Assembly: GCA_009797885.1 (NCBI GenBank)
Contig: WNKP01000004.1
Span: forward strand, 124,001-188,000
DNA: 64,000 nucleotides
From: Flavobacteriaceae bacterium GF1
Lineage (GTDB): Bacteria > Bacteroidota > Bacteroidia > Flavobacteriales > Flavobacteriaceae
Direction: 5' to 3'
Shown: positions 1,828-40,607 of the stretch, piece by piece
Layout of the letters: every line of letters starts with the position of its first letter
Numbering within the stretch: position 1 is the first letter of the stretch
The notes under the pieces: generated by a model
The model's input: the letters and a program-made list of their open reading frames with translations, nothing else
What the model was told of the DNA's origin: nothing
The model's database searches: none
Program-made: the position numbers and the translations under genes

Positions 1828-2101
1828 GTCATTCCCTCAGCGTATACCGACGAGGCATCCCAATAAACAGAATAGGATGCTTCCCCTTCACTTCGTTCAG
1901 GCCTCAGAATGACAATCAATGTGCTATTGGGAAATCCAGAATTTGATACAAGTATCCTGTTATCTAAAAAAATAGATTTCTCACCTTCGGTTCGAAATGA
2001 CAGAACAACAACGATTGTCATTTCGAGCGAGCAAAGCAACGAGAAATCTCAATTAACAGAGTGAGATTTTCCCCTTTACTTCGTTCAGGGTTCAGAATGA
2101 C
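1828..2101. repeat. Second block of ~85-bp inverted repeats
   Basis: The gap 1747-2175 holds no gene but carries two more copies of the element seen at 847-1278, at 1828-1913 (more diverged left arm) and 2017-2101. They are joined by the same linker type, containing CACCTTCGGTTCGAAATGAC. Together with the first block they flank the SRPBCC gene on both sides in the same orientation. No RAYT (Y1 transposase) gene, which mobilises REP elements in other bacteria, is present in the window. Confidence 0.83.
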
Positions 2102-2175
2102 AATCAAGGAACGAAACCGTGGTACTGCTGTAACAAATTCTGTTCGTATTCATCTTTACAGCAAAACTCCAACCA

Positions 2176-3069
2176 ATGAACACGATCAAAAGCCTTTTGC
2201 CGACCTTTCTCTTTCTTTCCTTAGTAGTTGTTGGCTGCACTACAAAGCAGGAAAACAACACCGCCGATACCGCAACCCCATCAGTTTTGGATACCTTAAA
2301 ATATCCTGGGGACTTTTTCCCGGAAGAACGGGCCAAGGTCCTGGTCGTAGGCACCTTCCATTTTGGCTATCCCGGATTGGATACCCATAAGACTTCCGAG
2401 GAGGACCAGGTAGATGTATTAAAGGAGCCCAAAAAGTCAGAATTGGAAGATTTGATTGCACATATTAAAAAGTTCCAACCCAATAAGGTTGCCATCGAAG
2501 CCCGCCCTACGTGGAACACCATGGAAAAGTTTGCGGCCTATAAAAGTGGGGCGCATTCAGATAAACGGGATGAACGCTATACCCTGGGAATGCGTATTGC
2601 AAAAGACATGGCATTGGATACACTTTATGCCATAGATGCCAAATCATTGTTTTATGATTTAAAAAAGAAGGATTCCGTCCTACTAAATTCCCTCATAGAC
2701 CAAATAGATTGGGATGCCCCGGATCCCTATTGGGATATGGCCAAAGAGTGGTTGAGCTATGACGACAAAATCGTTTCCAAAATGCATCTGTTGGACTACT
2801 TTAAATACCTCAACTCCAGAAAAAACCACTTGGCCAACTACGGCCTTTACCTTACGGGCAATATGGGTAAGGTCGAAAATCAGGCCGCGGATAATCTGTC
2901 CCTATGGTGGTACAACCGAAACCTTCGCATTTTTTCGAAACTGGTCGGGATTTCCGAAGGCCCGGAAGACCGCATTTTGGTCATCATGGGAAATGGCCAC
3001 GCTTCCTTGTTACGTCACTTGTTTGAATCCACTCCGCAATTTGAATTTGTGGAATTCGATAGCCTTTAA
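2176..3069 (+). CDS. Putative lipoprotein, DUF5694-like (Tiki/TraB/ChaN-type fold suspected)
   Basis: A 297-aa protein with a lipoprotein signal peptide: a hydrophobic stretch at residues 6-20 and lipobox VVVGC, so it is probably lipid-anchored in the envelope. The mature part begins with a strand VLVVGTFHFG followed by P.LDTHK, has a helix with PNKVAIEARPTWN, and ends with MGNGHASLLRHLFE. These GTFHFG and GNGH segments match my recollection of the DUF5694 family and resemble the paired motifs of Tiki/TraB/ChaN-like proteins, some of which are metal-dependent hydrolases. The ATG at 2176 gives a normal signal peptide. Function is unknown; the family call is from memory. It stands alone, preceded by the inverted-repeat block. 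Confidence 0.65.
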   Translation: MNTIKSLLPTFLFLSLVVVGCTTKQENNTADTATPSVLDTLKYPGDFFPEERAKVLVVGTFHFGYPGLDTHKTSEEDQVDVLKEPKKSELEDLIAHIKKFQPNKVAIEARPTWNTMEKFAAYKSGAHSDKRDERYTLGMRIAKDMALDTLYAIDAKSLFYDLKKKDSVLLNSLIDQIDWDAPDPYWDMAKEWLSYDDKIVSKMHLLDYFKYLNSRKNHLANYGLYLTGNMGKVENQAADNLSLWWYNRNLRIFSKLVGISEGPEDRILVIMGNGHASLLRHLFESTPQFEFVEFDSL

Positions 3070-3137
3070 GGAATAGTATCGCCCAATATTCATTTTTATT
3101 GCACTAACAATCAATTACTTAAAACATAAATTCTTTT

Positions 3138-3155
3138 TTTGGCACGCTGTTTGAT
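3138..3155 (+). promoter_or_regulatory. Sigma-54-like promoter upstream of the Arg/Ser-rich protein
   Basis: The sequence TTGGCACGCTGTTTGA at 3139-3154 matches the sigma-54 -24/-12 consensus (TGGCACG-N4-TTGC) with correct spacing, except that the final C of the -12 element is A. It follows a T-run, as is common for these promoters. Transcription would begin near 3166, leaving a leader of about 42 nt before the ATG at 3208. No sigma-54 activator gene lies in the window. Confidence 0.5.
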
Positions 3156-3207
3156 TCTTCTAGGGTGGGATGTAAATAGTTGCACCTAAAACTAAAATGA
3201 AACAGTT

Positions 3208-4401
3208 ATGAGAAAGTTTGTATTCTTAATGGCAGCCCTGGTATTTGGAACTTCTGCTACACAAGCTGCGACGGTGAATGGTGAAACAGCAATGACCGCA
3301 TTTCGTTATGGCAACTCGTTTATTTTTGTGGAAAACGGTATTACCTTTTCTGTATATCCCGATGGTGAATTTGATTTTTATATTGATAATCGGGTAAACG
3401 TAGGGGTCGGCGCACGTGTTGGGAATGTGGGTATCACCTTTAATTCCGGTTTTAATTATAACCCATTTGTACAGTATGATGATTTTGGTGCCGTAATCCA
3501 AGTGGAAAATGTACCTATCTTTTATGACTTCTACGGTCGGGTTTCCCAAATCGGTGGAGTGGATATTTGGTACAGAAACGGATTTGTGCGACGTTTGGGG
3601 GGATTGAACGTATTTTGGAATGGCGGTGTATTCAGTCATACTACCGGCTTTATTAACATCTACAACCGTGGCTATGTATTTAGGCCATGGCACAGATGGT
3701 TCGCCAGACCGGCAATAGGATTCTGTAATGTATGGACCACTCCCTATAGAAGGTGGTACAATCCCATCCGATACACATGGCACAGACCTTACAGGAACAA
3801 TGTACGTAGAGCTTATGCACAAATAGGTCGCGAGTACCGATTCAACAGAACGCGAAGGGCAAAGATCTATAGGAATGACAGACGTGTTGCCGTCCGTGAA
3901 AACAATCGCATAAGACGTAATGATATCGGTAGGAGCAATCGAGCTGTTGCTGAAAGAAGATCGGTTAGGCGTTCCAACAATGCCATTGCACAAAGGAACA
4001 ATAGGTCCACTACGATAAATCGGAGTAACAATACGCGACAAAATCAGGATCAGGTTAGGCGTAGCACTAGCAGGAGGAGTACTTCAGATGCTCGTCGATC
4101 CAACCGCAATACTTCGGTAACGCAGCGTTCGGTAAGTCGGACCCCACGGAGTACCACGGTGACCAAAAGGGAGGTAAGCCGTACCCCTAACCAGAGGACG
4201 GTAACGAAAAGGAGCAGTACCTATACGAAACCAAAGCGTACTGTAGCCCAGACCCGAAGTAGGAGTACCAGCGTTAAGCGAAGTACCCCCTCAAAAAGAA
4301 CCGTGACCAGGAGTACGACAACCACAAGAAGGAGTTCTTCTGGAACAAAGAACAAAAACTCAAGAAGCACAAGAAATACAAGAAGTGCTCGAAGATTATA
4401 A
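3208..4401 (+). CDS. Secreted protein with aromatic/Gly-rich domain and Arg/Ser-rich basic tail
   Basis: A 397-aa protein of unknown function. Residues 1-21 form a signal peptide (hydrophobic core FLMAALVFGTSA, then TQAA). Residues about 25-190 are rich in Gly, Asn, Phe, Tyr and Trp in alternating patterns such as GNVGITFNSGFNYNPF, suggesting beta structure. From about residue 195 the protein is a low-complexity, strongly basic tail of RRS, RST and KRS motifs, with imperfect short repeats such as SRTP and VTKR. The composition suggests a periplasmic or surface protein that contacts an anionic polymer, but this is inference. A sigma-54-like promoter precedes it and two hairpins follow it. The gene is monocistronic. 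Confidence 0.75.
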   Translation: MRKFVFLMAALVFGTSATQAATVNGETAMTAFRYGNSFIFVENGITFSVYPDGEFDFYIDNRVNVGVGARVGNVGITFNSGFNYNPFVQYDDFGAVIQVENVPIFYDFYGRVSQIGGVDIWYRNGFVRRLGGLNVFWNGGVFSHTTGFINIYNRGYVFRPWHRWFARPAIGFCNVWTTPYRRWYNPIRYTWHRPYRNNVRRAYAQIGREYRFNRTRRAKIYRNDRRVAVRENNRIRRNDIGRSNRAVAERRSVRRSNNAIAQRNNRSTTINRSNNTRQNQDQVRRSTSRRSTSDARRSNRNTSVTQRSVSRTPRSTTVTKREVSRTPNQRTVTKRSSTYTKPKRTVAQTRSRSTSVKRSTPSKRTVTRSTTTTRRSSSGTKNKNSRSTRNTRSARRL

Positions 4402-29885: not shown

Positions 29886-31577
29886 TCACCTTACCAGCTT
29901 TTTGTACTTAATACGTTTTGGCATGATATCAGCTCCCAAACGTTTCTTTTTGTTTTCCTCATAATCGGAGAAAGACCCCTCAAAGAAATAGACCTGGGAA
30001 TCCCCTTCAAAGGCCAGGATATGGGTGCAAATCCGGTCCAAAAACCATCGGTCGTGTGAAATAATAACGGCACATCCAGCAAAATTCTCCAAGCCTTCTT
30101 CCAAAGCACGCAAGGTATTAACATCCAAATCATTGGTAGGCTCATCCAACAACAAAACATTGCCTTCCTCCTTTAGTGTCATGGCCAAGTGCAATCGGTT
30201 CCGCTCCCCACCGGAAAGCATGTTTACCTTTTTGTTTTGTTCACTTCCGGAAAAATTGAACCGACTTAAATATGCCCTGGAGTTCACCTGCTTCCCTCCC
30301 ATCATCACCAATTCCTGTCCATCGCTGAAGTTTTCCCAAATGGATTTTTCTGGGTCAATATTTGAATGGGATTGGTCTACATAAGCCAATTTGGCTGTGT
30401 CGCCCACAACGAATTCCCCCTTATCAGGTGATTCTTCGTTCATGATCATTCTAAAAATAGTGGTCTTACCGGCACCATTGGGACCAATAATGCCCACGAT
30501 ACCTGCCTGTGGAAGATTAAAATTAAGATCCTCATAGAGGAGTTTATCCCCATAGACCTTGCTCACGCCTTTGGCCTCTATGACATTGGTCCCTAGCCTG
30601 GGGCCGTTGGGGATATATATTTCCAGTTTGTCTTCCAATTGCTTTTGGTCCTGGCTGGCCAACTTATCATAGTTCTTTAAACGCGCCTTTTGCTTTGCCT
30701 GCCGCCCTTTTGCTCCTTGACGTACCCATTCCAATTCCCGTTCCAGGGTTTTTTGACGTTTGGAGGCCTGTTTGCTTTCTTGGGCCAATCGCTTGGCCTT
30801 TTGATCCAGCCAACCTGAATAATTTCCTTTCCAGGGAATGCCTTCCCCCCGGTCCAGTTCCAGTATCCACCCGGCAACATTGTCCAGGAAATACCTGTCG
30901 TGGGTCACTGCAATCACCGTGCCTTTGTATTGGGCCAAATGGTGTTCCAACCAATGTACCGATTCCGCATCCAAATGGTTGGTAGGCTCATCCAAAAGCA
31001 GGACATCCGGTTCTTGCAATAATAAACGGCATAGGGCAACCCTCCTTCGTTCACCGCCGGAAAGCACTTCAATCTTCTTATCCGCTTCCGGGGTCCTCAG
31101 GGCGTCCATTGCTATTTCCAGTTTCGTGTCCAGTTCCCAGGCATTACTGGCATCAATCTTATCTTGCAGTACCGCCTGCCTGTCCATCAATTTTTGCATT
31201 TTATCCGCATCCTCATATACTTCCGGTAGGGCGAACATATCATTGATCTTATGGTACTCATCCAATGTAGCAACGGTTTCGGCTACCCCTTCTTTCACAA
31301 TCTCAAGGACCGTCTTATCCGCATCCAACTGTGGTTCCTGCTCCAAATAACCAACGGAATAGCCCGGTGAAAAAACCACATCGCCTTGATAATTTTTATC
31401 CACTCCCGCAATTATTTTGAGCAAGGTGGACTTACCCGAGCCGTTTAAACCAAGAATACCAATCTTTGCCCCATAAAAAAAGCTTAAATAAATATTCTTA
31501 AGTACTGGTGTATTGGCATTCTTAAAGGTCTTGGTGACCCCTGCCATGGAAAAAATGACCTTTTTATCGTCAGACAT
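29886..31577 (-). CDS. ettA: Energy-dependent translational throttle protein EttA (ABC-F)
   Basis: A 563-aa cytoplasmic ABC-F ATPase that binds the ribosomal E site and gates translation elongation by ATP/ADP ratio. Two ABC domains are visible: Walker A GLNGSGKST and GPNGAGKTT, signatures LSGGERRRVA and LSGGERNRLH, and Walker B/D-loop DEPTNHLDAES and DEPTNDLDVNT. The linker (P-site tRNA interaction motif) carries basic sequence such as KGRQAKQKARLKNYDKL. Length is close to E. coli EttA (555 aa). The ATG at 31577 lies only 4 nt from a heptameric repeat array (31582-31720), which would form part of its leader RNA. Confidence 0.93.
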   Translation of the reverse strand: MSDDKKVIFSMAGVTKTFKNANTPVLKNIYLSFFYGAKIGILGLNGSGKSTLLKIIAGVDKNYQGDVVFSPGYSVGYLEQEPQLDADKTVLEIVKEGVAETVATLDEYHKINDMFALPEVYEDADKMQKLMDRQAVLQDKIDASNAWELDTKLEIAMDALRTPEADKKIEVLSGGERRRVALCRLLLQEPDVLLLDEPTNHLDAESVHWLEHHLAQYKGTVIAVTHDRYFLDNVAGWILELDRGEGIPWKGNYSGWLDQKAKRLAQESKQASKRQKTLERELEWVRQGAKGRQAKQKARLKNYDKLASQDQKQLEDKLEIYIPNGPRLGTNVIEAKGVSKVYGDKLLYEDLNFNLPQAGIVGIIGPNGAGKTTIFRMIMNEESPDKGEFVVGDTAKLAYVDQSHSNIDPEKSIWENFSDGQELVMMGGKQVNSRAYLSRFNFSGSEQNKKVNMLSGGERNRLHLAMTLKEEGNVLLLDEPTNDLDVNTLRALEEGLENFAGCAVIISHDRWFLDRICTHILAFEGDSQVYFFEGSFSDYEENKKKRLGADIMPKRIKYKKLVR

Positions 31578-31581
31578 GATT

Positions 31582-31720
31582 ATGGTTAATGGTTAATAGT
31601 TGATGTTGATGGTTGATGGTTGATGGTTGATGGTTGATGGTTAATGGTTAATGGTTAATGGTTAATGGTTAATGGTTAATGGTTAATGGTTAATGGTTAA
31701 TGGTTAATGGTTAATAGTTA
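31582..31720 (-). repeat. Heptamer array of 20 units directly upstream of ettA (arm A)
   Basis: On the plus strand the sequence is 19 seven-base units and one six-base unit (31603-31608). The main unit is ATGGTTA; positions 31596-31636 carry the variants ATAGTTG and ATGGTTG, and the last unit is ATAGTTA. Read on the minus strand, the ettA sense strand, the unit is TAACCAT or CAACCAT. The array ends 4 nt before the ettA ATG. The rest of the gap 31578-31821 holds the second arm and nothing else that I can identify. Confidence 0.95.
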
Positions 31721-31733
31721 ATAGAAAGTAGAA

Positions 31734-31768
31734 AACTTTTAACTTTTAACTCTCAACTCTTAACTTTT
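31734..31768. repeat. Opposed heptamer array (arm B) of the ettA element
   Basis: Five exact 7-nt units AACTTTT, AACTTTT, AACTCTC, AACTCTT, AACTTTT. On the complementary strand these read as AAAGTTA/AGAGTTA-type units, that is, the same degenerate heptamer as arm A but in the opposite orientation. A 13-nt spacer (31721-31733) separates the arms. Confidence 0.85.
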
Positions 31769-31821
31769 TATAGGGTTTTCCCGAACAACTGCAATGTCTT
31801 TAAAATTCTACCTGAATCCAA

Positions 31822-32004
31822 TCAAACCCTACCTTTTAGGGCATTGAACACCCAGGCTATTGCAAAAAAGCCAATTCCGACTGCGCCAAAACCGTATCCG
31901 GCTACTTCATCATATTTAAAAGCCCCAAGGGCAATCATTCCCAATCCCACCGCAATCATGATGATTGTGGCATAAGCCAGTACAGTATTTTTATTCATTC
32001 CCAT
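31822..32004 (-). CDS. Small two-span membrane protein, CAL67264 family
   Basis: A 60-aa protein with two hydrophobic segments, TVLAYATIIMIAVGLGMIALGAF and GYGFGAVGIGFFAIAWVFNAL, joined by the short loop KYDEVA, and a basic end KGRV. It matches my memory of the flavobacterial CAL67264 membrane protein family, whose function is unknown. The ATG at 32004 is the first of two close start codons (MGMNKN). It is the gene upstream of the ettA heptamer element and divergent from the carboxylase gene. Confidence 0.75.
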   Translation of the reverse strand: MGMNKNTVLAYATIIMIAVGLGMIALGAFKYDEVAGYGFGAVGIGFFAIAWVFNALKGRV

Positions 32005-32113
32005 TCGTACAAATTAAGTGTAAACTCAAATATCGGAAAAAATGCAAGAACCATCCTTACGGCAATCTCAATTGGCATTGTATCTTTAACAAATAAAGCA
32101 TAAAACCCATAAA

Positions 32114-33742
32114 ATGGATCTAAACTTCAATAAAAATGAAGATCATAATAAATTAATGCTTGCACAACTCCGACGAAAATTGGCCGATTTAAAGCTCGGA
32201 GGGGGTAAAAAACGAATTGAAAAGCACCATGCCAAAGGAAAAATGACCGCCAGGGAACGTATTGCCTATCTACTGGACTCCGATGAAGCGGCCATTGAAG
32301 TCGGCGCCTTTGCCGGCGAAGCCATGTATAAGGAACATGGGGGTTGTCCTTCCGGAGGTGTCGTGATCAAAATTGGCCATATTCAAGGAAAGCAATGTAT
32401 TGTTGTGGCCAATGATGCTACCGTTAAGGCTGGTGCTTGGTTCCCCATAACAGGAAAAAAGAACCTTAGGGCACAGGAAATAGCCATAGAGAATCGACTT
32501 CCCATTATTTATCTCGTGGACAGTGCGGGAGTCTATCTCCCCATGCAGGATGAAATTTTTCCGGACAAGGAACATTTTGGACGCATATTCCGGAACAATG
32601 CCGTAATGAGCAGTATGGGAATCACCCAAATTTCGGCAGTCATGGGAAGTTGTGTCGCCGGGGGCGCCTATTTGCCTATTATGAGTGATGAGGCGCTGAT
32701 CGTGGATAAGACAGGAAGTATTTTCCTAGCGGGAAGTTACCTGGTGAAGGCCGCCATTGGCGAAAGTATTGACAATGAAACCTTGGGAGGAGCCACAACG
32801 CACTGCGAGATTAGTGGTGTTACGGATTACAAGGCCAAAGATGATAAAGATGCCCTGGACACCATCAAAAACATTGTAGACAAAATAGGGACTTTTGAGA
32901 AAGCAGGCTACAATCGTATCGAACCCAAGGCCCCAACCGAAAATCAGGAGGAAATCTTTGGTATTCTACCCAAATCCAGAGCTGACCAATATGATATGTT
33001 GGAGATCATCAAGAGATTGGTGGATGATTCCAAATTTGAGCAATACAAGGAAGATTACGGAAAAACACTTTTGACGGGATATGCACGAATTGATGGCTGG
33101 GCCGTAGGCATTGTGGCCAACCAACGCAAAGTTGTAAAAAGTGGAAAAGGCGAAATGCAATTTGGAGGGGTTATCTATTCCGATTCCGCGGACAAAGCCA
33201 CTCGATTTATAGCGAATTGCAATCAGAAGAAAATCCCTTTGGTGTTTTTGCAGGATGTTACTGGTTTTATGGTAGGCAGTAAAAGCGAACACGGCGGAAT
33301 CATAAAGGATGGGGCCAAAATGGTGAACGCCGTTAGCAATTCAGTGGTTCCCAAATTCACCATAGTTGTTGGAAATAGTTATGGTGCCGGCAATTACGCC
33401 ATGTGTGGTAAAGCTTATGACCCCAGGTTAATTGTAGCATGGCCCAGTGCGGAGCTGGCGGTAATGAGCGGTAATTCGGCAGCCAAAGTGTTGCTACAGA
33501 TTGAAAAAGCCGCTTTGGAGAAAAAGGGAGAGGCCTTTGATACCGAAAAGGAAAAGGCCCTTTTTGAAAAAATAAAAACCCGGTACGATAATCAGGTATC
33601 GCCCTATTACGCTGCTGCACGTTTGTGGACCGACGCCATTATTGACCCTATGGCTACTAGAAGGTGGATCTCCATGGGTATCGAAGCCGCCAATCACGCT
33701 CCCATTGAAAAGCAGTTTAATCTAGGGGTATTGCAAGTATGA
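32114..33742 (+). CDS. Acyl-CoA carboxylase, carboxyltransferase (beta) subunit
   Basis: A 542-aa carboxyltransferase of the methylcrotonyl-/propionyl-CoA carboxylase beta family. It moves the carboxyl group from biotin to an acyl-CoA. Motifs: KGKMTARERIAYLLD at the start, the first oxyanion region GSCVAGGAYLPIMSDE, and the second GNSYGAGNYAMCGKAYDP. The sequence leans toward the methylcrotonyl-CoA type, which would place it in leucine catabolism, but the substrate cannot be fixed. No biotin carboxylase or biotin carrier gene lies next to it. Its TGA and the stop of the convergent gene abut as TGATCA. Confidence 0.87.
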   Translation: MDLNFNKNEDHNKLMLAQLRRKLADLKLGGGKKRIEKHHAKGKMTARERIAYLLDSDEAAIEVGAFAGEAMYKEHGGCPSGGVVIKIGHIQGKQCIVVANDATVKAGAWFPITGKKNLRAQEIAIENRLPIIYLVDSAGVYLPMQDEIFPDKEHFGRIFRNNAVMSSMGITQISAVMGSCVAGGAYLPIMSDEALIVDKTGSIFLAGSYLVKAAIGESIDNETLGGATTHCEISGVTDYKAKDDKDALDTIKNIVDKIGTFEKAGYNRIEPKAPTENQEEIFGILPKSRADQYDMLEIIKRLVDDSKFEQYKEDYGKTLLTGYARIDGWAVGIVANQRKVVKSGKGEMQFGGVIYSDSADKATRFIANCNQKKIPLVFLQDVTGFMVGSKSEHGGIIKDGAKMVNAVSNSVVPKFTIVVGNSYGAGNYAMCGKAYDPRLIVAWPSAELAVMSGNSAAKVLLQIEKAALEKKGEAFDTEKEKALFEKIKTRYDNQVSPYYAAARLWTDAIIDPMATRRWISMGIEAANHAPIEKQFNLGVLQV

Positions 33743-34909
33743 TCACCTTGCACTCTTCATCATAATATTCGCCGTGGGTTTGTCACCTACCTTAAGTACC
33801 ATGACCTGATATCCTTCCTTACGGAAAAATATCTCATCATTCGTATTGGCCGCTATGGTATAGCGTCCTTTGTCATCGGTAACCACGGTCTCTTTGGTTC
33901 GTTTATTGGTAACCTCCACACCTTGTACCATACGACCTCCCATTAAAGTGAAACCCGAAATGGTTCGAATTTTCTTCCTTTTACGTAACTCCCTTTTTTC
34001 AAAACGCTGCGCTACTTTTTCCGGTACCATCAGGGAAGTTTCCAGATAATAGGCCATGTTTTGGTCCGTAATCCGTTCCCATTTACCCTGACTTGCATAT
34101 TTTCTATAGGAACCATACTTATCCGGCGCTCCGGCCAATATCAATCCCAATTCCTCATTCCCATATACCGTCAATAGTTCCAGTGATAGCATAAAGTCAT
34201 TTCTAACGTAAAGATCGTATGGCTTTAAATCTACCCAGACGATCTTATCCGTCTTTTTTACGGTGACCAAAATATTCTCCCCGGATTTGTTCAAATTGGT
34301 CTTTGGCCTGCCCATTGTTCCATCATCCTTATAAATATTGACGCGGAGCAGCAGGCTGTCCGAAGGGTTGTGGAATACTTCGAACTGAAAGCGTTCCAAT
34401 CTACGAAGTCCACTTTTTGCAATTATGCGGGTGGCCAACTCACCTCCCAGGGCAATCTGGTCTTTCCAATAACCAAAAATACGCTGGCCGGAGTTTTTAT
34501 AACCAATGGTATTTTGAATAAACCGTTCGCCCTTGTTGGATACCACCACCTCATCCAATTCCACCCTGGTAGGTGTCATTTTAAAAACCGGATATTCATT
34601 GTAAACCAATGGCATTTCGGCTACCGGTATGTTCAAAGAACCGTAACCCAAGGCGGAAAAGAGTATAATTGCCTCGGATTCCACCTTATTTTTTTGAAAA
34701 TAAAGATGGAAAAGACCTTCTTCGTCACTTACGGTTCCGATACCTTTTTCAACAATACCAATATTTACATAAGGAATGGGCTCCCCTGTTTTTGAATCCA
34801 CCACCTTCCCTTTATAGTCTTTTTGGCCCACACCAAACTTAAAGACAAATAACAAGATGAACGAGGCCAATAAACGGACCTTAAAACTATGGTGTCCCAA
34901 TACTTCCAA
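33743..34909 (-). CDS. Carboxypeptidase-regulatory-like domain protein, secreted
   Basis: A 388-aa envelope protein with a signal-type segment (LLASFILLFVFKFGVGQ) followed by a carboxypeptidase-regulatory-like beta sandwich (YKGKVVDSKTGEPIPYVNIGI). The middle (about 130-300) is unassigned, with WKDQIALGGELATRI and FHNPSDSLLLRVNIY; the end resembles a second regulatory-like domain (VEVTNKRTKETVVTDDKGRY). There is no ATG before the signal segment; the start is probably TTG at 34909 (TTG GAA) or TTG at 34900, overlapping the upstream gene by about 20 nt. Its function is unknown, but overlap with the plug-domain gene implies a joint role. Confidence 0.7.
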   Translation of the reverse strand: MEVLGHHSFKVRLLASFILLFVFKFGVGQKDYKGKVVDSKTGEPIPYVNIGIVEKGIGTVSDEEGLFHLYFQKNKVESEAIILFSALGYGSLNIPVAEMPLVYNEYPVFKMTPTRVELDEVVVSNKGERFIQNTIGYKNSGQRIFGYWKDQIALGGELATRIIAKSGLRRLERFQFEVFHNPSDSLLLRVNIYKDDGTMGRPKTNLNKSGENILVTVKKTDKIVWVDLKPYDLYVRNDFMLSLELLTVYGNEELGLILAGAPDKYGSYRKYASQGKWERITDQNMAYYLETSLMVPEKVAQRFEKRELRKRKKIRTISGFTLMGGRMVQGVEVTNKRTKETVVTDDKGRYTIAANTNDEIFFRKEGYQVMVLKVGDKPTANIMMKSAR

Positions 34910-36680
34910 TGGTCCTTACATTAAAAAGTTCTTGGTTCGTGTCCTTTACGTTCAATTTAAACACCCGTACTTCTTTGCGCTGTTCTTTGGAACCATAGTT
35001 GTGGTAAATGGTTGCCTTTAAATAGGTAGGGGTCAGACTCTTGTTGCCCTGGTATTTTATATTCGCCCTCCATATTCCTGGAATTGAACCATCTATAAGA
35101 TATTCCGAGCAGGCATATCCCAGTTCCTTTTCCCGTAAAATGATTTCAGGATTTTCTTCAAGACTATGCTTCCAGGTGTAGTATTGCCCTTCCGGGTTTA
35201 CAAATTGTAGATCAAATTCCGCTTCGCTATCGTTCCATTCGAATACCAAACGCGTTCCTTTATATTCTTCCCCATCCATACTAACCCGCTTACTTTTTAC
35301 AACCCTGTCGTCAACCTCCAAAGCCAGCAGGTTATTGAACTCCCTTTTAATTATTGTTGAAAAGGTACTTGTATCGGTTTCCATAAATCCTTCATCCAAC
35401 AAATAAAAATATCGCGCATAGACCTTCGCCGCCATGGCAGTTTTTCCCAAATTTCTATTACTATTGGCAAGTTCCAAATACGATTGCGCATAATGGGGCC
35501 TTAAAATGAATACATCTTTGGTCACCTGATGTGAAAGCCCAAACCTTTCCTGTGATTCATAGATGTAGGCCAATGCTTTCAATACTACGGGATTCCCGAC
35601 AAAAGAATCCATGGCACCTTCCACTACGGCATCCGCAAACTGTTGCGCATTCCATTTTTCATAAAAAAACCTATAGGCATCCAAAATAAAGTAGGGATTG
35701 CCAGCATATTTGTCCAAATTGGATTCAAAGATTGCCTGGGCTTCCTCAAATGTTGTTGCGCTTTCCAATTCCCTTAAATACGTGGGTGCATTCTTTAAAG
35801 CTACTGAACTGGATACCACAGGTTCGCGTAAAAAATTATTCCTTAACCTAGCAGTATCCCAGGGCCTACCATTTTTATCCTTGGGTATGACCGTTCCTGT
35901 TTTTGTATTGATGACGATTACACCTCCCCTGGCCATTGTTCCATATTTAACCGTCCCTGCAGAGGAAGATAAAATACCTATCCGTCTTATGTTTTGAACA
36001 TCTATAAAATCAGGAAAATCGGTAAACAATTGTCCGTCAATATCAAAGATGGCCCTTCCTCCCCTTAGCAAAACCGACCGTCCTGCATTGGCCCCGAAGG
36101 CCGCTCCAAACCCCACCGTTGTGGCATTGGGAGTTCCAACAGTTCCCGAACCCATGCCAAGACCATTCAACACCCTAATACCAGCAAATCTGTTTTGTAA
36201 TACCAAGGCTAAATTGTATTCTCCCGGCAGAATGTCATTTCCATCCATTATTCTGACGGAATAGGATACTTTTGTTTTATCCAGATATCCAAAAAGGGTT
36301 TTGAGAATGTTTGGGTTGGTGGCGTATTGTGTCTCCAGTTCTTTCTGGCTGTTGTTCCTATTTTGGGTAACCGTGACATTTTTGAGTTTTACCACTTTGG
36401 GAAACATTTCCACATTTAATGTTTTTGTCACGTCTTCCACCCGTATTTGGATAGGTTCCATACCAGGATAATTGTAGAACAAGGCATCACCGGGCGAAGC
36501 CAAAATCCTATATTTTCCATCTTCGTCCGTATTGGTGGAAACCCCACTGTTAACGATTTGCACATTGGCGTTTGGGAGAAGATTCTCCCCATCCGTAATG
36601 GTACCTTTTATAAAACGTTCTTGTGCGGAGCAGATAAAAACTGAAATCGAAAGGATGAGGACAGTGTAAAATATTTTCAT
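34887..36680 (-). CDS. Carboxypeptidase-regulatory-like plus TonB-plug domain protein without a barrel
   Basis: A 597-aa secreted protein (signal peptide VLILSISVFICSAQ). Residues about 22-95 form a carboxypeptidase-regulatory-like domain (IKGTITDGENLLPNANVQI). Residues about 130-265 look like a TonB-receptor plug (LVLQNRFAGIRVLNGLGMG, VLLRGGRAIFDIDGQ, ARGGVIVINTKTG). Instead of a beta barrel, the plug is followed by a helical TPR-like region (VVLKALAYIYESQERFGLS, YLELANSNRNLGKTAMAAK) and a beta domain. The protein therefore cannot form a channel and may act as a ligand-binding or scaffolding part. It overlaps the next gene by 23 nt. Confidence 0.72.
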   Translation of the reverse strand: MKIFYTVLILSISVFICSAQERFIKGTITDGENLLPNANVQIVNSGVSTNTDEDGKYRILASPGDALFYNYPGMEPIQIRVEDVTKTLNVEMFPKVVKLKNVTVTQNRNNSQKELETQYATNPNILKTLFGYLDKTKVSYSVRIMDGNDILPGEYNLALVLQNRFAGIRVLNGLGMGSGTVGTPNATTVGFGAAFGANAGRSVLLRGGRAIFDIDGQLFTDFPDFIDVQNIRRIGILSSSAGTVKYGTMARGGVIVINTKTGTVIPKDKNGRPWDTARLRNNFLREPVVSSSVALKNAPTYLRELESATTFEEAQAIFESNLDKYAGNPYFILDAYRFFYEKWNAQQFADAVVEGAMDSFVGNPVVLKALAYIYESQERFGLSHQVTKDVFILRPHYAQSYLELANSNRNLGKTAMAAKVYARYFYLLDEGFMETDTSTFSTIIKREFNNLLALEVDDRVVKSKRVSMDGEEYKGTRLVFEWNDSEAEFDLQFVNPEGQYYTWKHSLEENPEIILREKELGYACSEYLIDGSIPGIWRANIKYQGNKSLTPTYLKATIYHNYGSKEQRKEVRVFKLNVKDTNQELFNVRTIGSIGTP

Positions 36681-36752
36681 GGCAATTTTTCCAATAATTT
36701 ATTCATAATCAGTCAAATTAACAACTGATTAAGGTAAACTTTAACGTTACCT

Positions 36753-38114
36753 TCAATTCCCTTGATATGTCCTAACACGAGGTATCACCAACAATTTGGT
36801 CTGGCGACCATTGACATATCGAAACCCCTCTTCCCCAAAAAAACCGGCTTCCTCCAACATGATTCGGATGTCCCTTTTCCATTCCGGAATCGTCACTGTG
36901 GTATTCAATTCAATGGCATACACCGTATTGGTGTTCAGTGGATAATTCTCCCCATCATCTTTCATTACGCCTTCCTGTGCATCCCACATACCAATGGTTG
37001 TTCCTGCAGAATGGCCATACAACCCCAGAGGGTGCGTATAAATAGTCGGTCGTAATCCCACTTTCCTGGCATCGGACAAGGCCTTTGCCAAAATTTGATT
37101 CCCTGTTTTACCCTGGATCATGTTCGTCGTTAAAAAATCCTGGACCCTGTTGCCCTCTTTTAAGGCATCGACCAAAAAACTGGGCGGACTTTTTTCCTTT
37201 GGTTTAAGTACATAGGCCAATTCCTGACAGTCCGTATTTAAGCGTAAATAGGTGATGCCAAAATCACAGTGCACTAAATCCCCCGGTAGGATAACCATAT
37301 CTTCCGGCCTACCTGAAAATGAATACAAATGACTGACCAGTTCTTCACTACTACGTTGTACATCCACTGTTGGGTGAAACCAGGTTTCCAATCCCAAATC
37401 CGTAGCTTTTTGGCGCATCCACCATTCTACTTCCGATGTTGTGGTCACCCCCGGGGTAATTACTTTTTCTGAAAAGGCTTTGGCAATAATATCGTGGGTA
37501 ATATCCACCAATTGGTTATAAATGATCATTTCCCGTTCGGTACGCGTTTCGATCCAGCGTACCGCCAACTGTTCGGCCGACACTATCCTGGAATGATATT
37601 TTTTAGGAAGGTTTTCAAGCAATTCTTCATAATCCGTTTTTACCAGGCCATCGGCAATATTGTGGTCTTTTGAAAAATTCAGGCCTATTTTCCTGGGATT
37701 GCGTTCGTCAATTAACTGCACCAATCTTTTCCACTGATTGGGCTCCTTGTCTTTATCCCATGCCGATTCTATATTCCTTCCTACATTATATCTGGCTACT
37801 GCCAACTTATGGATACTGTCCTTGGCCGCATCCCGATAAAAGAGCAGTATGGTCCTACGACGGGCATTTAACCAGGTTGCGGGCAACATGGTGCGTAAAA
37901 CCGGATCCTCATTATACTCCCGTGAAATGATCAGCCACATGTCAATATCCGTCTTATCCATCAATTCTGGAAGTAGGTTATTGAACCGATCTGCTAAAAT
38001 TTCATCGATTACCCGGGCGCGTTCCTTCTCTGGAAGGATCTGCTGGGTCAACACAAGGCATGGAAAGAGAAGAAAAATGTAGTGTACTAATTTCATGGAG
38101 TTTGATTTTTTCAT
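36753..38114 (-). CDS. Secreted M24 family metallopeptidase (Xaa-Pro aminopeptidase-like)
   Basis: A 453-aa protein with a signal peptide (LVHYIFLLFPCLVLTQ), so probably periplasmic. The N-terminal creatinase-like domain (ADRFNNLLPELMDKTDIDMWLI) precedes a pita-bread catalytic domain whose five metal ligands can be seen: aspartates in VHCDFGITY and LNTDCQEL, histidine in THPLGLYGH, and glutamates in VYAIELN and MLEEAGFF. All appear intact, so it should be an active aminopeptidase or prolidase-like enzyme. The ATG at 38114 (or 38096) gives the signal peptide. Upstream lies the long heptamer-array element. Confidence 0.85.
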   Translation of the reverse strand: MKKSNSMKLVHYIFLLFPCLVLTQQILPEKERARVIDEILADRFNNLLPELMDKTDIDMWLIISREYNEDPVLRTMLPATWLNARRRTILLFYRDAAKDSIHKLAVARYNVGRNIESAWDKDKEPNQWKRLVQLIDERNPRKIGLNFSKDHNIADGLVKTDYEELLENLPKKYHSRIVSAEQLAVRWIETRTEREMIIYNQLVDITHDIIAKAFSEKVITPGVTTTSEVEWWMRQKATDLGLETWFHPTVDVQRSSEELVSHLYSFSGRPEDMVILPGDLVHCDFGITYLRLNTDCQELAYVLKPKEKSPPSFLVDALKEGNRVQDFLTTNMIQGKTGNQILAKALSDARKVGLRPTIYTHPLGLYGHSAGTTIGMWDAQEGVMKDDGENYPLNTNTVYAIELNTTVTIPEWKRDIRIMLEEAGFFGEEGFRYVNGRQTKLLVIPRVRTYQGN

Positions 38115-38163
38115 GAAGATAATGAACTAGCTTGAGGAAGCGCCATCGAGATATCAGAATCAG

Positions 38164-38408
38164 GGGTTAGAGGTTAGGAGTTAGGGGTTAGGGATTAGAG
38201 GTTGGGAATTAGAAGTTGGGTGTTGGGAATTAGAAGTTGGGTGTTGGGTGTTGGGTGTTGGGTGTTGGAAGCTGGGAGTTAGGAATTGGAAGCGGGAAGT
38301 GGGAACTTAGGAGTTAGGAGTCAGAAGTTAGAAGTCAGAAGTGAGAAGTGAGAAGTGAGAAGTGAGAAGTGAGAAGTGAGAAGTGAGAAGTGAGAAGTTA
38401 AGAGTCGG
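38164..38408. repeat. Long heptamer array, 35 units in strict 7-bp register (arm A)
   Basis: From 38164 to 38408 the sequence divides into 35 seven-base units without a single insertion or deletion. Units vary around RRGTTRG: GGGTTAG, GAGTTAG, AAGTTGG, GTGTTGG, then AAGTGAG repeated eight times at 38339-38394. A 21-bp block (three units) is duplicated at 38206-38226 and 38227-38247, and GTGTTGG occurs four times at 38241-38268. These higher-order copies in multiples of seven point to slippage or unequal exchange. Confidence 0.95.
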
Positions 38409-38420
38409 GATAAAGCAATC

Positions 38421-38546
38421 TTGTTTCTTGAATCTTAAATCTTGACTCTTGATTCTTGATTCATGACCCTTGATTCATGACCCTTGATTCATGACCCTTG
38501 ATTCTTGACCCTTGACTCTTGGCTCTTGATTCTTGGCTCTTGATTC
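38421..38546. repeat. Opposed heptamer array, 18 units (arm B)
   Basis: From 38421 to 38546 there are 18 exact seven-base units such as TTGATTC, ATGACCC, TTGACTC and TTGGCTC, including three copies of the 14-bp pair TTGATTC-ATGACCC. On the complementary strand the units read GAATCAA, GAGTCAA and GGGTCAT, so they are the same degenerate family as arm A in reverse orientation. A 12-nt spacer (38409-38420) separates the arms. No gene was found in the gap 38115-38620. Confidence 0.93.
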
Positions 38547-38620
38547 TAGTCCCCGATGTGCTTTGACTACAGGTTTGTTACCCCTGAGGAAGGGTCTTGG
38601 GAGATTCCAATGGTTAAAAC

Positions 38621-39691
38621 TTAGGGCTTTTGCAATTGAAGTACTGTTTCTTCCCGGCGAATCTTACCATTTTTGGTTTCCACAAATTTAGGCGTGCTTA
38701 GAATCCGCTTTGGCTTTTCAAACTTATCAAGGTCTCGCAGGCTATCTATTCTTTTTTGTAGTATTTCCCCATCCACATCCCCCTCAATTACAAGTACCAA
38801 CTCCTCCCCTAGTTGCCCATGGGGAATGCCAAAAGCAAAAAACCTATTTTCAATTAATGGTGCCAATTTTTCCTCGATTCGCTCAGGAATCAATTTGACT
38901 CCTCCGGAATTGATGACATTGTCATACCTGCCCAGCCATTTAAAATGGGTGTCATCCCTAATTTCCACCAAATCATTGGTAATAATCCTTTCTGCAGAAA
39001 CCTTTGGAGCCACAATGACCAGGCAGCCCCTTTCATCCCTTTCAATTTGAATATCGGGCAAGGTCTGGAAATAGGTCTCGTGAGTACCTGACTTGACATT
39101 TCCTATTTCCCTCACTGCAATGTGGGTCACCGTTTCCGTCATGCCATAGGTCTCAAAAATGGTTCCTTGCTGTTTTGCCAAGGCTTCTCGAAGCGATTTT
39201 GATATTGGTGCACCACCAACAATGAGTTTTTCAATATTTTGAAGACCGGCCAAGGAATTTTCCACCTGTAAGGGCACCATGGCACAAAAACCGTATTGCT
39301 TTTGAGGGACCGTCAAAGGTTTTGATGAGGGGGCAACAATATCCAATTCCAAACCTAAAATCAATGCCCTTACCAACATCATTTTCCCAGCAATATGTTG
39401 GGCAGAAAGACATAGAAGCGAAGAACTGCCTGGTCTAAGGTCAAAAAACCTACCTGTGGTCAACGCAGAGTTGACCATGAATTCCTTGTTGATTTCAATA
39501 ATCTTGGGTTGACCTGTAGAACCGGAAGTTTGTACTGGGATACATTCTGACGGTCCAAGCCATTCCAATAGAAAATTACCTGCGGCCTTTTCAAAATCCT
39601 GCCCTTCCTTTACCCAGGAATAGGCCACTTCATATAATCCATCCCCATTAAAGTGGATACCATTGAGCTTAAACGCCGGATGAATTCCCAT
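38621..39691 (-). CDS. menE: o-Succinylbenzoate-CoA ligase, short form
   Basis: A 356-aa AMP-forming ligase that activates o-succinylbenzoate with CoA in menaquinone synthesis. Adenylation motifs are PVQTSGSTGQPK (P-loop), ETYGMTETVTHIA, and the hinge region WLGRYDNVINSGGVKLIPE; the C-terminal lysine motif is ETKNGKIRREE. The protein is about 100 residues shorter than E. coli MenE, as is usual in Bacteroidota, lacking much of the N-terminal subdomain. The ATG at 39691 overlaps the CPBP protease gene by 23 nt. It is the last gene of the menC-protease-menE run. Confidence 0.9.
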   Translation of the reverse strand: MGIHPAFKLNGIHFNGDGLYEVAYSWVKEGQDFEKAAGNFLLEWLGPSECIPVQTSGSTGQPKIIEINKEFMVNSALTTGRFFDLRPGSSSLLCLSAQHIAGKMMLVRALILGLELDIVAPSSKPLTVPQKQYGFCAMVPLQVENSLAGLQNIEKLIVGGAPISKSLREALAKQQGTIFETYGMTETVTHIAVREIGNVKSGTHETYFQTLPDIQIERDERGCLVIVAPKVSAERIITNDLVEIRDDTHFKWLGRYDNVINSGGVKLIPERIEEKLAPLIENRFFAFGIPHGQLGEELVLVIEGDVDGEILQKRIDSLRDLDKFEKPKRILSTPKFVETKNGKIRREETVLQLQKP

Positions 39692-40607
39692 CTTGGATAG
39701 CTATAAACTTTTCTTTGGTCATCACATCACCAATCAATCGTTCCTTCCAATTGGACCATTTATACTTTCGTGAAAAGACAACCAACAAAATAGGGAATAC
39801 CACAAAAACCGGAATAAATGCTTCCAACCCCAGACTGGGTTCGGAAACGTCCCTATAAATGGAATCTGTTTGGAAAGCGGTCCAATCGGCCGTCACCAAC
39901 AATGCCGTTATCAAATTATTGGCGGCATGGAATCCCAGTGCGAGTTCCAAACCTTCGTCCATCAGCGTAATGATGCCCAAAAAGAAACCTGTTCCAATAT
40001 AAAAGACCATAATGCCGAATCCTAGCTTTTCGACCTCTGGATTTGCAATATGCATCAGGCCAAATAGAACTGAAGTGATGACCAAGGGCAGCCAGCGATT
40101 TTTAGCCAAAATTCCCAATCCCTGCATCAAATATCCTCGGAAGAAATATTCTTCAAAACTTGTTTGGCAAGGTATCAGTAGTATAGCGATAACGGCAAGG
40201 GGAAGAAATCTCGATAGATTAAAATTAAAAACATAGTCCTGCGGGGAAAGGTAAATGCCAATTAAGGTAAAACAACAGGTAATAGTTCCCCAAATGAAAA
40301 AAGCAAAAAAGATTCGTTTCCAGTCTATTCGGGGTCTCGAGGTTGTCAAAGAAGTCAGTGTTTGTGGGTGCACCCATTTGACCCAACACAAAAGAATTAA
40401 CAAAAAGGCGGTAAATTGCAACAAGTTTTCGGCAAGAAATCGATTACTCCCTTTTCGTTCAATTTCACTTTGCATTATCGCCTCAACATCCAGGCCCAAA
40501 AGTAAAATGCCTAAATATGCCACTGCCGTCAATCCAAAAAATACTGTTGGGATAATAAAATATTTCCAAATACCTAGTTTTCCTCTGTATCCTTGTTCTA
40601 TGTACAT
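39669..40607 (-). CDS. CPBP family intramembrane metalloprotease
   Basis: A 312-aa protein with about eight hydrophobic segments. The CPBP (CaaX protease and bacteriocin-processing, Abi) signatures are present: EEYFFRGYLMQG (EExxxR), FGLMHIANPE with its metal-binding histidine, and GFHAANNLITA with the HxxxN-type motif. It is a membrane-embedded protease of unknown substrate. The ATG at 40607 overlaps the end of menC by 10 nt; a TTG nine codons upstream is less likely. Its position between menC and menE is recurrent in flavobacteria, but no quinone role is known. Confidence 0.85.
   Translation of the reverse strand: MYIEQGYRGKLGIWKYFIIPTVFFGLTAVAYLGILLLGLDVEAIMQSEIERKGSNRFLAENLLQFTAFLLILLCWVKWVHPQTLTSLTTSRPRIDWKRIFFAFFIWGTITCCFTLIGIYLSPQDYVFNFNLSRFLPLAVIAILLIPCQTSFEEYFFRGYLMQGLGILAKNRWLPLVITSVLFGLMHIANPEVEKLGFGIMVFYIGTGFFLGIITLMDEGLELALGFHAANNLITALLVTADWTAFQTDSIYRDVSEPSLGLEAFIPVFVVFPILLVVFSRKYKWSNWKERLIGDVMTKEKFIAIQDGNSSGV

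Follow-up and report, generated by a model that had tools for sequence, protein, structure and literature searches.

Cyanobacterial STRR sequences are tandemly repeated heptanucleotides, and their units have fixed consensus sequences. In most genomes of the Mrazek 2007 survey heptanucleotides are the commonest class of long simple repeats (cited via MacGregor 2015, PMC4679880).

Rehm 2015 (PMC4692102) describes the heptamers GGGAATC and GGGGA(C/T)T in intergenic regions of Xanthomonas and Nostoc; a preference for four units is a further trait of this type. The repeats are found near whichever gene adjoins their 5' side, irrespective of how that gene is oriented, and overlap stop codons; 70 and 75 convergent cases are given for two Xanthomonas genomes, and no function could be assigned to heptamers of the GGGAATC type. 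According to MacGregor 2015 (PMC4679880), five Bacteroidetes have TAACTGA arrays, in some cases next to heptamers of another kind; Gramella forsetii, A. sublithincola and E. anophelis have long arrays of different heptamers. Given these five Bacteroidetes and the convergent pairs of Xanthomonas, the statement of an earlier sequence-only reading that no such element is known in Bacteroidota is too strong. No publication on the present arrays was found in the literature searched, which lacked most subscription journals.

Paired arrays in the window

The window, the whole 64 kb stretch of DNA that was analysed, contains two elements made of opposed heptamer arrays. Their parts and neighbouring genes are as follows.

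38164..38408, + strand: arm 1 of the main element, 35 heptamers, purine-rich TYRRRRR on +; nearer the M24 peptidase start; HMM arm 38156-38419
38409..38420, no strand: 12-nt centre GATAAAGCAATC; a similar stretch parts the arms in both sister species (by eye)
38421..38546, - strand: arm 2 of the main element, 18 heptamers, purine-rich on -; nearer the MenE-like stop; HMM arm 38420-38547
38621..39691, - strand: MenE-like AMP-binding enzyme gene, on the transcriptionally upstream side of the main element
36753..38114, - strand: M24 metallopeptidase family gene, downstream of the main element
31584..31734, + strand: one arm of the second element, purine-rich on +, with units of the TTAATGG type; the EttA start codon is 6 nt away
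31735..31768, - strand: second element, opposite arm, GTTAAAA-type units on -
29886..31577, - strand: EttA (ABC-F) gene, downstream of the second element

The main element was described in the sequence-only reading as 35 and 18 consecutive seven-base units with a 12-nt spacer between them. A direct check bears this out: both arrays are in register and free of indels, they fill exactly 38164-38408 and 38421-38546, and the spacer at 38409-38420 is confirmed. That the second array is the same heptamer on the opposite strand holds at the purine/pyrimidine level (T, pyrimidine, mostly five purines); at the level of bases the likeness is weaker, with typical units TTAGAAG, TGAGAAG and TTGGGTG in one arm and TCAAGAG and TCAAGAA in the other. 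The further claim that unit length is kept far better than unit sequence is supported. Identity at lag 7 is 0.77 in array 1 and 0.71 in array 2; with multiples of 7 set aside, the lags up to 35 give 0.23-0.34 and 0.14-0.30.

Read in the direction of transcription, the first array is the purine one, 73 nt past the stop of the MenE-like gene; the pyrimidine array follows, with 41 nt between it and the M24 gene. Both lie outside the 20-nt limit used in the orientation tests below. The best NCBIfam scores of the MenE-like enzyme are below the menE cut-offs.

A lag-7 scan of the window (63-base windows, at least 60% identity) marks only two places after merging, 31558-31783 and 38144-38568. The scan picks out this pair again at lag 14 and nothing at lags 3-6 and 8-13. 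TRF reports nested periods of 14, 21 and 28, and the array HMM has no match in one mono-shuffled copy of the window. The first place holds the second paired element (31584-31768), which this finding of the sequence-only reading leaves out.

The window also carries a tandem pair of a 100-bp unit at 1031-1243, starting TGTCATTTCGAGCGAGC. A similar string, GTCATGCTGAGC, follows the array of another locus (L255, at 1553); the two look like members of a dispersed repeat family.

Array distribution and turnover

Further arrays were found by BLAST with both elements and with a sequence-only model whose consensus unit is T, pyrimidine, five purines. In the genome under study (G000), 19 of the 20 regions examined around matches hold at least one HMM array, with 22 sites altogether; together with the two in the window this gives at least 24 array sites. 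The sites lie in spacers or run into gene ends by up to about 20 nt. Period-7 arrays are thus found at other sites of the genome and in relatives, which supports the earlier reading. Model matches (up to 56 nt each, several per array) number 42 in G000, 51 and 65 in the sister species G007 and G002, and 0-12 in eight other members of the genus. At E values up to 1e-4 there are matches in 101 of 249 Flavobacteriaceae genomes; matches are also present in 88 of 296 Bacteroidota genomes, a set that includes Flavobacteriaceae members as well. The array sets come from a model built largely on G000 (20 of 21 rows from three sister species) and spanning 8 units; consequently, other heptamers are missed and short arrays are under-counted.

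Both sister species have arrays in the same spacers as G000, with very different unit numbers. The MenE-side and M24-side arms hold about 18+38 units (HMM) in G000, 16+11 in G007 and 58+38 in G002. The G002 assembly is one contig of 5.69 Mb and also has arrays in the homologous spacer, so the assembly artefact that the earlier reading had considered is excluded for the main locus. Contigs do break within heptamer arrays elsewhere (end of C1 and start of C40 in G007, end of C17 in G000); C1 and C40 are probably adjacent, because they end in two parts of the EttA array.

Eighteen groups of orthologous spacers, built from ORF sizes and flank sequence, bear arrays in two or all three of the sister species. 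In groups of single orientation, flank lengths are often constant while array lengths vary; in one group, arrays of 83, 132 and 223 nt sit between flanks that measure -20 and 120 nt in each of the three species. Wherever both flanks are of identical length (6 within-group pairs, three of them from one group), the array lengths differ by multiples of 7: 7, 21, 28, 49, 91 and 140 nt. Among 28 within-group pairs, flanks agree within 3 nt in 19 cases on the 5' side and 12 on the 3' side.

Within arrays, adjacent units differ less in the middle (mismatch 0.118 vs 0.183 and 0.149 at the ends in 53 arms; 0.054 vs 0.080 and 0.072 in 36 arms), and unit identity declines with the distance between units from 0.81 to 0.74. 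Register breaks are 5 per 1301 units and 4 per 826 units, or 27-34 and 16-22 at looser settings; comparison with the flanks, where 18 gap events accompany 258 substitutions, is only suggestive, because copied variants inflate the mismatches within arrays.

Two other modes of change were considered and rejected. Growth by eating into neighbouring sequence should shorten a flank; in the 28 pairs, the 3' flank beside the longer array is the shorter one 10 times and the longer one 6 times, with 12 ties; for the 5' flank these figures are 3, 6 and 19. Large flank shortening is confined to the 265/110 locus and the 531 locus, and gene calls differ at the latter. Directional ageing along the array was also rejected; the 5' third is more varied than the 3' third in one set (p=0.050), and the other set gives p=0.72.

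The next relative, G004, has about 3 units at EttA (by eye) and about 4 at leuC-leuD, in unchanged orientation and just before the start; these short arrays may be the beginning of a birth series. In the other members of the genus these two spacers have no HMM-called array, and G009 has a trace by eye. Spacers beside what seem to be corresponding genes bear heptamer arrays in different genera (L251/L258 and L272/L273, by eye), a hint of recurrent birth or long persistence.

Several loci have less regular layouts. At L238 of G007 (1971-3324), a purine arm and a pyrimidine arm are roughly 1 kb apart, and two small ORFs (97 and 191 aa) lie between them; at L190 of G000 (1870-2047) the same arms meet directly. 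By eye, purine, pyrimidine, purine and pyrimidine stretches alternate in a spacer of both species (L193, 1884-2030; L220, 1924-2168). A dispersed core of about 60 nt to the left of some arrays was tried as a separate component and rejected (6 matches in 5 of 11 genomes, two of them in G000 counting itself); it probably consists of decayed units.

At three unrelated spacers the arms are parted by a common centre, AAAAGTTTYCTACTTT, and for two of these spacers this is so in all three species; some paired elements therefore have a common origin. A MITE- or REP-like mobile element inserted into many spacers would provide such a centre. Nevertheless, this origin is very unlikely: arrays hold orthologous positions in the sister species, often with base-exact flanks; no constant terminal motif is observed; and several arrays start inside a stop codon that is itself part of the unit. 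Insertion polymorphism was not observed among the sister species, and at the two spacers checked arrays are missing only in more distant members. The shared centres are most simply explained by recombination between arrays.

Orientation at gene ends

For the position tests, plain ORFs of at least 90 aa were taken as genes. Of the 107 elements in sets A and B, 98 have a single orientation and 9 are mixed. The nearest-end test scored 87 of the 98; the exclusions are 4 ties and 7 elements without a flanking gene or with an internal ORF. Set A double-counts three orthologue groups (L197/L218, L203/L214 and L208/L211), and in set B a genome may contribute several loci, while different genera share at least two of the spacers; because of these orthologues, multiple loci and common spacers, the p-values for orientation are nominal.

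When the nearest gene end is a stop within 20 nt, the purine strand is mRNA-sense in 36 of 42 Flavobacteriaceae cases; when it is a start within 20 nt, the array is pyrimidine-sense in 13 of 14. With all arm ends within 20 nt counted, the figures are 47/56 purine-sense at stops and 16/21 pyrimidine-sense at starts. Beyond 20 nt no preference is seen (6 purine-sense vs 8 at stops, 8 pyrimidine-sense vs 9 at starts), and the rule without the 20-nt limit is weaker (18/21 in set A, 45/66 in set B). Many purine-sense arrays begin within the last codons of the gene, and in several the unit itself forms the stop codon.

In 20 loci from other Bacteroidota families the stop rule holds at 12 of 14 ends, and just 1 of 5 ends is pyrimidine-sense before a start; the whole rule gives 13/19 (nominal p=0.17). 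All four start exceptions are arrays whose opposite end abuts a stop in purine sense. None of these 20 loci is mixed.

The purine arm comes first in all nine mixed elements (6 in set A and 3 in set B), one of which bears a third, purine arm. Together with the position rule, this makes the opposed pair look like two arrays, one toward each end of the spacer. The rule at stops also holds in convergent pairs: 17 of 29 arms there have the 5' end of the purine strand no more than 20 nt from a stop, and 3 of 29 have the 3' end that close; a Rho-type polar effect on a downstream gene is rejected on this ground. A three-frame stop cassette was likewise rejected. Stop triplets per 7 nt are 0.77 in purine sense and 0.65 in pyrimidine sense, against 0.75 and 0.60 after column shuffling; values so near the shuffled ones leave little or no excess for such a cassette.

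Base context, together with selection, is the likely reason for the orientation. In 1567 genes, the last 6 bases including the stop codon are C-poor (C 0.073, purine 0.617; C 0.13-0.15 in the 18 bases before them), and G is 0.111-0.116 at 7-18 nt before starts. C-free arrays would thus fit gene ends and G-free arrays would fit leaders. Composition just outside stops is nearly balanced in the same genes (purine 0.50-0.52); consequently, context may not suffice.

The sequence-only reading suggested a structured RNA as one role. Opposed arms with the purine arm first (9/9 mixed elements) and the short centre of the main element are in keeping with a long transcript hairpin or terminator. Pairing does not follow: own arms pair worse than swapped arms (-284 vs a mean of -372 kcal/mol in 15 pairs including orthologues), and 99.3% of permutations pair at least as well, or 97.8% with 6 independent loci. 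Arms kept for pairing should fit their own partner best; since the fit is worse, pairing is unsupported. Avoidance of long perfect palindromes would explain this. The main element folds worse than 95 of 100 shuffles (z=+1.56) and its G007 orthologue is average (z=-0.45), so the suggested structured RNA finds no support; Rfam gives no match up to E=1 in 30500-40000, a stretch that takes in both elements. These arm-swap, folding and Rfam results refute a conserved hairpin. In addition, the 98 single-orientation elements have no opposed arm, and one array sits within the leuC-leuD spacer, where a strong terminator is unlikely. A folded transcript is accordingly a most improbable explanation.

G-quadruplexes, as proposed for the heptamers of Xanthomonas and Nostoc, are an equally poor prospect. 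Four GGG tracts occur in a single stretch of the main element, from 38239 on; G2-motif arms obey the orientation rule (30/35 ends), and the position rule is the one described in Rehm 2015 (PMC4692102). However, the G3 motif occurs in just 6 of 129 arms, and the rule is kept in arms without even a G2 motif (33/42 ends, nominal p=0.0003); quadruplex formation is therefore rejected as a sufficient cause of orientation.

The earlier reading also suggested a barrier to transcription or replication, and a binding platform. In the latter case pyrimidine arrays before starts, or purine arrays after stops, might be read by a protein or an RNA-binding factor that advances in 7-nt steps, e.g. of cold-shock type; one CspB for each heptamer is mentioned in MacGregor 2015 (PMC4679880). 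Unit length and strand asymmetry persist despite base drift, and orthologous persistence and the position rule are also consistent with a platform. Against this, other members of the genus have no array or few units at EttA and leuC-leuD, and few model matches; the named neighbours (MenE-like, M24, EttA, leuCD) have no common theme; and unit sequences vary widely from locus to locus. A platform role is doubtful.

Origin of the arrays and comparison with known heptamers

The main element is probably two neighbouring non-coding heptanucleotide satellite arrays and not one designed inverted repeat. Array position, orientation at stop codons, unit turnover, orthology and lack of arm pairing are direct observations. 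For the satellite origin, arrays would be born near gene ends, gain or lose whole 7-nt units in place while their bases drift, and eventually be lost by decay; the motor would be slippage during replication, or else unequal recombination in steps of 7 nt. Arrays tend to start close to gene ends; the purine-rich strand usually starts at a gene end and reads away from it, chiefly at stops, and sequence context and selection would set the orientation. With one array at each end, a spacer would then show arms that face each other, the purine arm leading on whichever strand is read. Shared centres call for recombination between sites as well, since slippage alone does not produce them.

Slippage does not account for a unit of 7. 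Lag 7 is not prominent in 1.55 Mb of other Flavobacteriaceae (79 loci), where it marks 4 places and lags 6, 8 and 21 mark 1, 5 and 7. As a control, a 400 kb G002 sample was scanned at lag 7 (66.7% over 42 bases) and gave no place. In 1565 genes scanned without a model, lag 6 is enriched besides lag 7. Near stops in Flavobacteriaceae loci L044-L162 there are 8 exact 6-nt tandem units (1.0 in shuffles) and 5 exact 7-nt units (0.3 in shuffles); an unbiased seed scan has too few cases for a polarity test.

A broader origin is conceivable, though unlikely. One process with an inbuilt 7-nt step and strand polarity would make arrays in Bacteroidota, Gammaproteobacteria and Cyanobacteria, starting from gene ends, chiefly stops, and with any base sequence. 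Acting from the two ends of a spacer, such a process would leave opposed arms as its trace, with no need for quadruplexes, hairpins or any influence on a downstream gene.

At stop codons the arrays are oriented like the heptamers of other phyla that form quadruplexes, but they have neither quadruplexes nor a conserved sequence. The array set weakens both quadruplexes and hairpins as explanations. Three sister genomes with orthologous, length-variable arrays make step size, polarity and turnover measurable.

Unlike cyanobacterial STRR, the present arrays have no fixed consensus. The TAACTGA repeats of Beggiatoaceae are spacer heptamers lying mostly just before starts, according to MacGregor 2015 (PMC4679880). 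The present heptamers are also in spacers, and their pyrimidine-sense units often start with TAAC; none of the arrays listed is built on TAACTGA itself. Unlike the TAACTGA repeats as described there, these arrays have many unit types and a strong link to stop codons in the opposite sense.

The repeats of Rehm 2015 (PMC4692102) share several features with the present arrays: a 7-nt tandem unit, dispersed intergenic sites, convergent pairs, the G/purine strand in sense after stops, overlap with stop codons, and the same gene neighbours in related species with varying array length. The G/purine strand is antisense before starts in that description; here this holds in 13/14 Flavobacteriaceae cases and 1/5 elsewhere. 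The differences are a host in the Flavobacteriaceae, a unit without fixed sequence, rare GGG tracts, and array sizes of about 58 units and more against up to 26; arm pairing, tested here, is unsupported. The orientation rule and convergent pairs are thus already known in quadruplex-forming heptamers; what is new is the rule without quadruplex capacity.
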